Below are positions 13,208 through 59,200 of a stretch of 64,000 bases of DNA, piece after piece (position 1 is the first letter of the stretch; every line of letters starts with the position of its first letter). Under the pieces are notes generated by a model. The model saw only the letters and a program-made list of their open reading frames with translations. It was not told the DNA's origin and did no database searches. This stretch comes from Urechis unicinctus (taxonomy: Eukaryota; Annelida; Polychaeta; Xenopneusta; Urechidae), in NCBI GenBank assembly GCA_034190875.2, contig CM067356.1:60100208-60164207 (forward strand), in the 5' to 3' direction. The translations under genes were made by a program, and so were the position numbers.

Positions 13208-14297
13208 ATGGCTCTCTGGGAGGAAGCCATTCTCCGGACGTTTGATGAGATGGTTCAGGTAAGGATCTTTCGATTTCGGAGAGAAATGCCTCCGTGATTG
13301 TCACAGGCTTGTCGAATTCCTTTCAGCTTGCACATGTGGATAGGTGTGCATTTGCTTAAAGTCTATTCTTCTGCTTCGGTGTTGATAGCTGATGGTCAAT
13401 TTAGAACAGAATGGAAGTGTTTTGCCCATCGAAGAACCCGAAGAGGTGAGCAGTGGTGTAGTACCTCGTGTGGGAATGAGCAGTGGTGTAGTGCCTCATG
13501 TGGGGTGAGCAGTGGTGTGGTGCCTCATGTGGGGTGAGCAGTGGTGTGGTGCCTCGTGTGAGGTGAGCAGTGGTGTAGTACCTCATGTGAGGTAAGGAGT
13601 TGTGTGGTGCCTCATGTGAGGTGAGCAGTGGTGTGGTGTCTCATGTGGGGTGAGCAGTGGTGTAGTGCCTCATGTGGGTTGAGGGAGCAGTGGTGTGGTG
13701 TCTCATGTGGGGTGAGCAGTGATGTAGTGCCTCATGTGGGTTGAGCAGTGGGGTAGTGCCTCATGTGAGGTGAGCAGTGATGTGGTGCCTCATGTGAGGT
13801 GAGCAGTGGTGTGGTGCCTCATGTGAGGTGAGCGGTGGTGTGGTGCCTCATGTGAGGTGAGCAGTGGTGTAGTGCCTCACGTGAGGTGAGCAGTGGTGTA
13901 GTGCCTCATGTCATGGTGAGCTTTGTGGTGCCTCACATAGTGAGCAGTGGTTGTAGTGCTGATAAATATTGCAATTTGTCAGCCTTTTTGCTCAGCCATG
14001 AGTCTTGTATTACGGAGTCTTGTGCAAGGCAGGTGGGCTGTCCTGGACAATCATTAACAGGTGATTTGCTGCAGCTTAGGGTGTGGATTATGTGATGTTG
14101 CTGCAGCTGAGTGTGTGATGTTGCTGCAGCTGAGGATGTGGTGTGCAGTGGTGTAGTCCTCAAATCAGTCTTGGTGAGCAGTGGTGTGCGCCTCACACTG
14201 TGTCAAGTATTGATTATCAGTATTTTTATTCAGTGCCAGTGATCTGCAGTTCGTCAAGCTTTTGTTCAAGTTCATCAGCGAACTCAACACCAGTGAG
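13208..14297 (+). CDS. Unidentified gene, first three coding exons (incomplete)
   Basis: Three short open segments with good splice signals join in frame: 13208-13258 (ATG, MALWEEAILRTFDEMVQ, donor CAG|gtaagg), 13405-13445 (phase 0 in, phase 2 out) and 14234-14297 (acceptor tttttattcag, ASDLQFVKLLFKFISELN, donor GAG|gtgatt). The predicted start is 52 residues, amphipathic and helical. I do not recognise the family. A different acceptor for exon 2 (13410) gives NGSVLPIEEPEE but breaks phase with exon 3. No later exon was found before LYRM9, so the gene is either truncated, continues through unseen small exons, or is a decayed copy. The gene is head to head, at 2 kb, with sulfotransferase copy 2. 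A minisatellite starts exactly at the exon 2 donor. Confidence 0.45.
13446..13950. repeat. 29-bp minisatellite starting at a 5' splice site
   Basis: About 17 copies of gtgagcagtggtgtggtgcc plus tcatgtgag. The first unit starts at the predicted donor (GAAGAG|GTGAGCAG), and every unit restores a gag|gtgagc donor-like sequence. See findings. Confidence 0.85.
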
Positions 14298-14414
14298 GTG
14301 ATTGGATGGTTTTGTGGCTAGTTTCTGGCCACGTGAGCCTCCATGTGCAGTGGATGTGAAAATGTACTTTAACAGCTGTGAGTCTGTCCAGCATTCACTT
14401 TTTATGTCCTGATG

Positions 14415-14795
14415 TATTTCTGGTCCTATCTGATATCTTTCTGGTCCTATCTGATGTCCTTCTGGTCCTATCTGATGTCTTTCTGATCCTATCTGATGTC
14501 TTTCTGATCCTATCTGATGTCCTTCTGGTCATATCTGATGTCTTTCTGGTCCTATCTGATGTCTTTCTGGTCTTTTCTGATGTCCTTCTGGTCCTATCTG
14601 ATGTCTTTCTGGTCCTATCTGATGTCTATCTGGTCCTATTTGATGTCTTTCTGTGCCTATCTTATGTCTTTCTGGTCCTATCTGATGTCCTTTTGGTCCT
14701 ATCTGATGTCTTTCTGGTCCTATCTGATGTCCTTCTGATCCTATCTGATGTCTTTCTGGTCCTATCTGATGTCTTTCTGGTCCTATCTTGATGAG
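14415..14795. repeat. 21-bp minisatellite
   Basis: About 18 copies of ctgatgtctttctggtccta plus t. Because 21 is a multiple of three, all frames without a stop in the unit stay open, giving artefactual SDVFLVL peptides. Confidence 0.88.
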
Positions 14796-15009
14796 AGCCT
14801 CAGATGAGATTTGGGAGCCAAATGAGAACCAACGGAGACTTAGCTGACCTAAACAGGCCAACGTGCGGTAGGATGCCCCGGAACTGAGTGACGTGGATTA
14901 TGCTGTTGACAATGAATTATAGGTCTAATTCACCGTACATGCTGTTTAGAGCACAACGCTTACGTCCGTTGAATCGACATATTCACCTGATATCATACCT
15001 TAGCAACTG

Positions 15010-55881: not shown

Positions 55882-56104
55882 AATATCATATCAATATCAC
55901 AGACGATATATTTAACTTTGATAAAATGCAGAAATGGATGGTTAAGCGGGGAAGTGTTTTTCTTCCCACGACATGATATTACCGAGTGATCACCCACGAT
56001 ATGACAGAGCAAAGTTATCATTCGCCCCAAAATGATATGATAATGGAGGGTATTCATTCACTCAAGCATGATATGATAGATGAGGGTAAATATACCTGTA
56101 AATA

Positions 56105-56240
56105 AATGAATATATATATATAAATATATATATATATATATATATATATATATATATATATATATATATATATATATATATATATATATATAGATATATA
56201 TATAGATATAGGAGAGATATATATATATATATATATATAT
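56105..56240. repeat. (TA)n microsatellite
   Basis: Pure TA run of about 80 bp, flanked by interrupted tatat/gatat repeats, just past the stop codon of the CARD/Death-domain gene. Confidence 0.95.
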
Positions 56241-56261
56241 AGAGATATCGAGACAATGCAA

Positions 56262-59200
56262 TCACTTGATGACTGGCAGAGGAGGGAGGCGCGGTGTTGC
56301 AGCCATCATGTTCTCCTGCGAGTTGATATCGTCAGCATCATCCAACTCGTCTTCATCCTCGTCCATCTCTACCACGTCGTCGTTGTCAGTCGGTGCTGAC
56401 GTCGCTTCCTCTATAACCAAGCCGTCCAGGTCCGGCTCTTCAAACGTGCCGTCCTCGTTCTGAACGATCTCGACGCGGTGAGCGGGGGTGACAATAAGTG
56501 CCAGATCAGGACGTCCAAGTTCCTTCAGTCCGTTCACGAGTTGTTCACAGCGGCCATTATCTTCATCACGCCAAGTCTTGAGCATCATGAAGGCCACCTG
56601 TGACGTCACAAGCGCCAAACAATCAACATACAAAACGTTTACTTATTTGGTCAGGTTGCCATTTGACGTAAGCTACTCACGGCATCCGTTTTGCCGATGG
56701 CTTCGAACTCGACCATATCCATGCGGTTGCTGGTCATGCCGATGGCTCGGCCCAACTGACGCCATTTCATCTGCATGCGGTCAGCCACGTACATCAACCG
56801 CTCATTCGCCAGGGCATCTGTACACAATCCTATCTCTATACCACAGCTGTACACAATCCTATCTCTATACCACATCTGTACACAATCCAATCTCTATACC
56901 ACATCTGTATACAATCCTATCTCTATTCCACATCTGTACACAATCTCATCTCTATACCACAGCTGTACACAGTCCTATCTCTATACCACAGCTGTACACA
57001 ATCGTATCTCTACACCACAGCTGTACACAATCCTATCTCTATACCACATCCGTACACAATCCTATCTTTATTCCACATCCGTACACAATCCTATCTTTAT
57101 ACCACATCTGCACACACTCTATACCACATCTGTACTCAATCTCATCTTTATACCACATCCGTACACAATCTCATCTCTATTCCACATCCGTACACAATCC
57201 TATCTCTATACCACAGCTGTACACAATCCTATCCTATACCACAGCTGTACACAATCCTATCCCTATACCACAGCTGTACACAATCCAATCTCTATACCAC
57301 ATCCGTACACAATCCTATCTTTATACCACATCTGTACACAATCTCATTTCTATACCACATCCGTACACAATCCTATCTCCATACCACAGCTGTACACAAT
57401 CCTATCTCTATACCACAGCTGTACACAATCCTATCCCTATACCACAGCTGTACACAATCCTATCTCTATACCACATCTGTACACAATCTCATCTCTATAC
57501 CACATCTGTACACAATCTCATCTCTATGCCACATCCGTACACAATCCTATCTCTATACCACAGCTGTACACAATCCTATCTCTATACCACAGCTGTACAC
57601 AATCCTATCTCTATACCACAGCTGTACACAATCCTATCTCTATGCCACATATATATCAATGGCGGGTGTATATAAATACAAACACACATCTCATCGATTG
57701 TGCAACTTATACTTCGTTTCGAAATTAGGATGAAAACATCTTTGATCCTACATTATGGAGCTTGATAAAACAGAAATGGCCTCATCATCAACGCACTCCA
57801 TTTCTTCTAAATAAAACAGAAATGGCCTCATCATCAACGCACTCCATTTCTTCTAAATAAAACAGAAATGGCCTCATCATCAACAACCCACTCCATTTCT
57901 TCTAAATAAAACAGAAATGGCCTCATCATCAACAACCCACTCCATTTCTTCTAAATAAAACAGAAATGGCCTCATCATCAACAACCCACTCCATTTCTTC
58001 TAAATAAAACAGAAATGGCCTCATCATCAACGCACTCAATTTCTTCTAAATAAAACAGAAATGGCCTCATCATCAACGCACTCCATTTCTTCTAAATAAA
58101 ACAGAAATGGCCTCATCATCAACGCACTCCATTTCTTCTAAATAAAACAGAAATGGCCTCATCATCAACGCACTCCATTTCTTCTAAATAAAACAGAAAT
58201 GGCCTCATCATCAACGCACTCCATTTCTTCTAAATAAAACAGAAATGGCCTCATCATCAACGCACTCCATTTCTTCTCAATAAAACAGAAATGGCCTCAT
58301 CATCAACGCACTCCATTTCTTCTAAATAAAACAGAAATGGCCACATCATCAACAACCCACTCCATTTCTTCTAAATAAAACAGAAATGGCCTCATCATCA
58401 ACCCACTCCATTTCTTCCTCTTCTTTTTCTTCTTCTTGCCTTTCTTATCCTCGTCGTCGTCGTCGGCGCCATTTCTCTTCTTCTTCTCCCTCCTAGCCGC
58501 CTCTTCTTCCTCCTCTTGCTTGCGTTTGTCTTTCTCCTCTGCTATGTCTTTGAGATTTCTCACATCGCGAATTATTCCCCGTACTATCTTACGGCATTGA
58601 TCAGCAGGAATGGTACTGTTCATGTTTTTAGCGTGGTAGCGAGTGATGACGCCGATTTGATTTCGCATCCGCTTGTGGAGCATTTCGCGTTTGTGGATTT
58701 CCACCATTTTTTGTTTGATGCGAAATTTCAGTTTGTCTGTCTCTTGTTGGTGTTGAACTTGTAATTCCTGGTTTTGCTTAACAAATTCTGCGATTCTTTG
58801 GCCGTGTTTGCCCTCTGTTTCTCTCATTTCCTTGCGGTAGTGCTTACGGACCGCGTCCACCAGCGCACCCATTCGAGTTTTAAGGCTGTCCGGCTCGTCC
58901 CCTTTACCCCGAGTCTGTGGTGTAAACGGCTTGCCCACAAGCTCTTTCCTAATTTTTTCAATCTCCTTTTCTTTCCAGTAGATCTCCTTCTCAGCCTCTG
59001 CAACTTGCTGGGCTAGATTCTTCCTCTCTTTGCGGGTATCTGCCAGCACCTTTTTGGCATCCCGCGATGCCTCTTTGTCCAGTATACCTTTGCGCAGAGT
59101 CGACGTGAGTTTGTTTTCTTCGACATCCAAATTCTCAAGTTCAACTTGCATATAGTACAGCTTGTTTACAGAGAGATTGATTTGAGAGAGAAGAAAGCGC

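Follow-up and report, generated by a model that had tools for sequence, protein, structure and literature searches.

Minisatellites lying across or against exon-intron boundaries were analysed in a window of 64,000 nucleotides from the annelid Urechis unicinctus (assembly GCA_034190875.2, contig CM067356.1, positions 60,100,208 to 60,164,207 of the forward strand; positions below count from the first letter of the window). Six of 75 modelled splice junctions were located inside such arrays, and at four of these, in LYRM9, SPECC1L, TBL2 (acceptor 49673) and a CARD/Death-domain gene (donor), comparison of the copies clearly points to exonic bases within the repeat unit. These arrays are probably "mirages," that is, minisatellites that began as short tandem duplications whose position chanced to span or abut an exon-intron junction. 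The phenomenon is real, is mostly as a first-pass annotation of this DNA had described it and has already been named: that annotation knew of no named description, but the mirages of lancelets are the same structure (PMC3087553, PMC3902484).

Ten gene models were built by hand from the sequence (the last exons of GLOD4, two sulfotransferase-like genes, gene C, LYRM9, PIPOX, PPM1D, SPECC1L, TBL2 and the Death-domain gene), and these supplied the 75 junctions. Tandem Repeats Finder (TRF) returned 137 rows, which were merged into 56 minisatellites outside microsatellites; 39 of these formed a strict set (length of at least 60 bp and score of at least 80). Arrays covered 2% of the modelled coding bases versus 32% of the remaining bases. 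Overlaps were detected at three donors and three acceptors, as follows (a caret marks the splice position in motifs).

13443..13959, plus strand: 29-bp minisatellite at the gene C donor 13445 (exon 13389-13445); the unit carries GAG^GTGAGC
19905..20188, plus strand: 29-bp minisatellite that spans donor 19930 of LYRM9 exon 2 (exon 19838-19930), its first unit containing 26 exonic bp
40585..41016, plus strand: minisatellite of ~32-bp units whose end crosses the SPECC1L acceptor (first exon base, 41010)
49614..49682, plus strand: three copies of a ~20-bp unit spanning the TBL2 acceptor (first exon base, 49673); absent from the first-pass annotation
56815..57650, minus strand: 29-bp minisatellite at the CARD/Death-domain acceptor (exon starts at 56817)
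57765..58417, minus strand: 46-bp minisatellite over the assumed CARD/Death-domain donor 58407/58406, with ~11 exonic bp in the unit

The earlier claim that arrays adjoin exon boundaries in five genes therefore largely holds, the weaker cases being the TBL2 donor 51573 and the CARD/Death-domain donor.

To assess the sharing of exonic bases, each boundary exon was compared in register with the array copies, and the remaining exon ends or starts of the window served as controls. For LYRM9, the exon end matched the copies at 9.38 of 10 positions, a level reached by none of 36 controls, confirming that the unit includes exonic bases. Positions +1 to +12 of the SPECC1L exon matched at a mean of 7.79 of 12 (controls, ≤5.93; 0/37 reaching the observed value), and positions +1 to +10 of the TBL2 exon at 49673, where ~10 exonic bp lie in the unit, matched at a mean of 8.0 of 10 (controls, ≤5.5; 0/37). 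The exon end at the CARD/Death-domain donor matched at 9.92 of 10 positions (0/36 controls). Duplications thus crossed boundaries and multiplied copies of splice sites, as had been proposed, at four junctions, the CARD/Death-domain donor being the doubtful member. The LYRM9 array holds 9 donor copies, the SPECC1L array 15 copies of TT[AT]CA[AG]^GT and the CARD/Death-domain acceptor array 19 copies of TGTACAG, the real site being included in each count. Lengthening of introns was also borne out, with arrays accounting for 258 of the 392 bp of LYRM9 intron 2 and 1,475 of the 1,589 bp of the CARD/Death-domain intron.

A register-free test of self-similarity was applied to all 75 junctions. Eight junctions had scores that were reached by 0 of 100 shuffles, against ~0.75 expected, and these comprised the six TRF junctions, the sulfotransferase acceptor 3341 and the SPECC1L donor 44032. 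The similarity at 44032 was taken as chance (13 exonic bases, no intronic bases and a low score). Acceptor 3341 is a near miss, absent from the earlier list, with an array 10 bp away.

Reading frames were used to follow the outcome of splicing at the additional copies. The protein end ...RDKYHKE is obtained from the LYRM9 donor 19930 only: the YHKE end is lost with all eight decoy donors, the next copy giving a frameshifted 96-amino-acid product and the other seven running to a stop inside the array. All 14 SPECC1L decoy acceptors run into an in-frame stop in the added sequence, and read-through in the TBL2 intron to each of 22 GGTRR sites, some of them within an insert described below, meets an in-frame stop. 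For the CARD/Death-domain acceptor, 3 of 18 decoys, lying among the last four copies, were checked and all three truncate the protein. At the three junctions where many copies were tested (LYRM9, SPECC1L and TBL2 51573), an intact protein is obtained only with the copy at the exon edge, an outcome that favours the gene models and also the reading of the other copies as decoys.

The donor side of the CARD/Death-domain intron requires caution. The first-pass annotation placed arrays at both ends of this intron with exonic bases in the unit; the acceptor stands as an array boundary, but sharing of exonic bases there was within the range of the controls, while the donor shares exonic bases and overlaps its array but is itself a weak site. 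Its sequence, GGA^GTGGGT, scores 2.4 bits, compared to a 5% quantile of 4.66 for the 33 other donors of the window, and a rival GC donor after 58440 (AAG^GCAAGA), in the same phase, scores 8.7 if its GC is treated as a GT. The assignment of donor 58407/58406 is, on these scores, doubtful. Splice signals are kept by most units at the boundary arrays, with the 46-bp unit as the exception, having a poor donor (unit donor score of 1.4). This unit also contains a T-rich stretch that ends in TTTAG and is similar to an acceptor (score, 8.0; P = 0.06), such that each unit resembles a tiny intron plus a micro-exon.

The TBL2 donor at 51573, from which an array had been reported to start, has a different structure, comprising the following elements.

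51589..51659, plus strand: three further copies of the 27-bp TBL2 unit, degenerate and beside donor 51573, found with a profile of the unit
51663..52063, no strand assigned: 401-bp insert with perfect 15-nucleotide terminal inverted repeats and CTGGTCT on both flanks, inside the TBL2 array
52068..52810, plus strand: main 27-bp TBL2 array, unit TCTACAGGTGAGC...

The TRF array starts only at 52068, but the three degenerate copies, starting at 51589, 51612 and 51633 and scoring 14.6 to 27.3 bits, bring the repeat close to the donor; elsewhere in the window, the profile has a 99.9% quantile of 1.6 and a maximum of 14.2. From its ends, the insert looks like a non-autonomous DNA transposon. As this element, with its inverted ends and CTGGTCT flanks, splits the array, the array predates the insert.

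A simple sequence of events could generate these structures. A one-unit founding duplication could arise anywhere by slippage or microhomology, the latter idea being based on a reading of the LYRM9 sequence alone. Founders located wholly inside an exon would mostly be removed by selection. With a founder straddling a boundary, use of the outermost splice site would preserve the exon, and further copies would fall into the intron. Multiplication and homogenisation of the copies via slippage or unequal exchange would then produce a longer intron and leave decoy splice sites that are mostly ignored by the cell. No machinery aimed at splice sites would be needed.

Several null models were used to determine whether the overlaps exceed chance. 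With arrays barred from coding exons, 0.06 overlaps were expected and none of 2,000 simulations reached the six observed; this null is too easy to reject, since it leaves out founding duplications that straddle a boundary. Permitting 26 exonic bases raised the expectation to 1.93 (P = 0.009). A straddling-founder null, in which founders of unit length were placed randomly and those falling wholly in exons were discarded, gave 1.99 expected overlaps for all junctions (P = 0.012), an approximately 3-fold excess, and 1.54 expected versus five observed for the strict arrays (P = 0.015). Removal of gene C and the CARD/Death-domain donor left four overlaps versus 1.87 expected (P = 0.11) or, for the strict arrays, three versus 1.46 (P = 0.18). 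Arrays were also shuffled within the 36 introns, 15 of which carry arrays: five array edges lay within 5 bp of a junction, compared to 1.14 expected (P = 0.003), and three versus 0.79 when strict arrays were used and the CARD/Death-domain donor was dropped (P = 0.034). The pattern exceeds chance adjacency but does not establish that boundaries are specially targeted. Random birth of duplications coupled with selection against exonic expansion explains much of the pattern and nearly suffices.

Some of the results weigh against founding duplications of this type as the source of all of the arrays. Boundary spanning is not established from the sequences of three junctions: at the gene C donor 13445, only ~3 exonic bases are common to the units and 9 of 36 controls reach the match; at the CARD/Death-domain acceptor 56817, there was no exonic sharing beyond chance (13 of 37 controls reach the match); and at the TBL2 donor 51573, a junction passed over by the self-similarity test, no exonic bases beyond the consensus are common to the units (7 of 36 controls reach the match). 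The ~3-fold excess over the straddling-founder null is a further such point, and the choice of modelled junctions was partly guided by the list in the first-pass annotation.

This excess is what would be predicted if duplication were targeted to boundaries, with AG^GTRAG or a splicing-linked DNA structure promoting tandem duplication at junctions, and both the straddling-founder and the within-intron tests can be cited in its favour. We consider targeting unlikely, since the excess loses significance without the doubtful junctions and since donors and acceptors are both affected, whereas a model based on the donor motif would not predict acceptors; a boundary-targeted process is not required by the data. 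It is similarly doubtful that boundaries are preferred birthplaces of minisatellites, with a mirage at up to 1 in 12 junctions and a spliceosome that reliably chooses the exon-edge copy among up to nineteen near-identical sites. Adjacency by chance, with ~30% of the non-coding sequence consisting of arrays and the splice consensus accounting for the shared bases, would fit gene C, the CARD/Death-domain acceptor and TBL2 51573, where sharing is within the controls, but is improbable as a general explanation given the 0.06 overlaps expected for exon-avoiding arrays and the sharing beyond all controls at SPECC1L, TBL2 49673, the CARD/Death-domain donor and LYRM9 (26 bp), for the last of which it is already refuted. 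Least probable of all is that the decoys are in use as alternative donors and acceptors giving regulated or nonsense-mediated isoforms: most copies keep their splice signals, and some donor and acceptor copy pairs of the CARD/Death-domain intron would, by arithmetic on the 46- and 29-bp units, be in frame, but all of the tested decoys (LYRM9, SPECC1L, TBL2 and 3 of 18 for CARD/Death) alter or truncate the protein, and the published work reports regular splicing by reverse transcription-PCR (RT-PCR) at the Adh3 and globin mirages (PMC3087553, PMC3902484).

Two general properties of the arrays were considered and rejected. Three boundary arrays do share a 29-bp period, as had been observed, yet this is ordinary: a 29-bp period occurs in 4 of the 56 merged arrays, and periods of 21 and 23 bp are commoner, with five arrays each (some multiples having been reduced by hand). 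Nor are splice motifs enriched across array units in general; in four tests per strict array, based on mononucleotide shuffles and with small P values left uncorrected, splice-like motifs outside the boundary arrays were no commoner among the 39 strict arrays than expected from the number of tests.

Searches with the window's proteins matched the LYR family, Death domain, PP2C, CH, FAD-dependent oxidoreductase and WD40 families of Pfam (E ≤ 0.001). The second sulfotransferase-like product matches Sulfotransfer_3, barely above the cut-off, and the GLOD4 model is backed by a PDB sequence match. The genes that we take to be LYRM9, PIPOX, PPM1D, SPECC1L and TBL2 were named from family resemblance, with no named database match. 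"CARD" is a label of the first-pass annotation, and no CARD domain was matched at E ≤ 0.001 in our N-terminally incomplete model. The unidentified gene of that annotation, gene C, has its donor inside an array at 13445 as claimed, but the gene itself is not confirmed: the 36-amino-acid product matches nothing in Pfam at E ≤ 0.001, and its best PDB match (E = 0.017), to designed repeat proteins, is unconvincing.

Other repeats were observed near these genes. A 13-bp array of ~65 copies (3835-4675) ends 7 bases upstream of the start codon (ATG at 3827) of a sulfotransferase-like gene on the minus strand and adjoins a CAG/TAG acceptor-like site. Tandem duplications within coding sequence were found in the second sulfotransferase-like gene (21 bp, 11099-11147) and SPECC1L (30 bp, 38503-38569), both periods being multiples of three. 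Downstream of LYRM9 lies a partial PIPOX duplicate (20602-20734 and 22160-22350), with 91% identity over 133 bp to 27299-27431 and 96% identity over 191 bp to 32510-32700. The duplicated last exon of PIPOX is closely preceded by a 32-bp array (21483-22128), located at no modelled junction, whose unit contains a sequence resembling a strong acceptor (score, 11.5; P = 0.005).

Mirages have been described in amphioxus Adh3, the globins BflGb6 and BflGb9, PGBD5 and troponin C, where introns are lengthened; splicing at the Adh3 and globin mirages is regular by RT-PCR, and the Adh3 arrays are unstable even in somatic tissue, both as stated in the globin paper (PMC3087553, PMC3902484). In these papers, the unit comprises exonic and intronic boundary bases, as at LYRM9, SPECC1L, TBL2 49673 and the CARD/Death-domain donor but not demonstrably at gene C, the CARD/Death-domain acceptor or TBL2 51573, and many units keep splice signals, as here with the exception of the 46-bp CARD/Death-domain unit. 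Regular splicing was reported there from RT-PCR; here, the reading frames fit use of the copy at the exon edge. The units of ~20 to 46 bp fall within the 10 to 72 bp described for Adh3 and below the 150 to 160 bp of the globins. Intron gain by tandem genomic duplication, which involves duplicated AGGT segments according to a review (PMC3443670), likewise copies splice signals, but here existing introns grow. Intronic minisatellites of Caenorhabditis elegans, linked to alternative splicing, are not described as copies of exon boundaries in the available portion of that report (PMC4039745). No genome-wide survey of mirages was found in the literature searched, which mostly lacked subscription papers. 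What this window adds is a per-junction count in ten adjacent genes (6 of 75 junctions, the unit including exonic bases at four), together with a null model.

To our knowledge, the boundary-spanning minisatellites of this window form one of the denser sets of their kind. If this density is general, copying of their own edges would be the main route of intron growth in this lineage, and each array would be a natural experiment on choosing one among many near-identical splice sites. The number of mirages could also be compared to that predicted from random duplication and selection, offering a simple population test.
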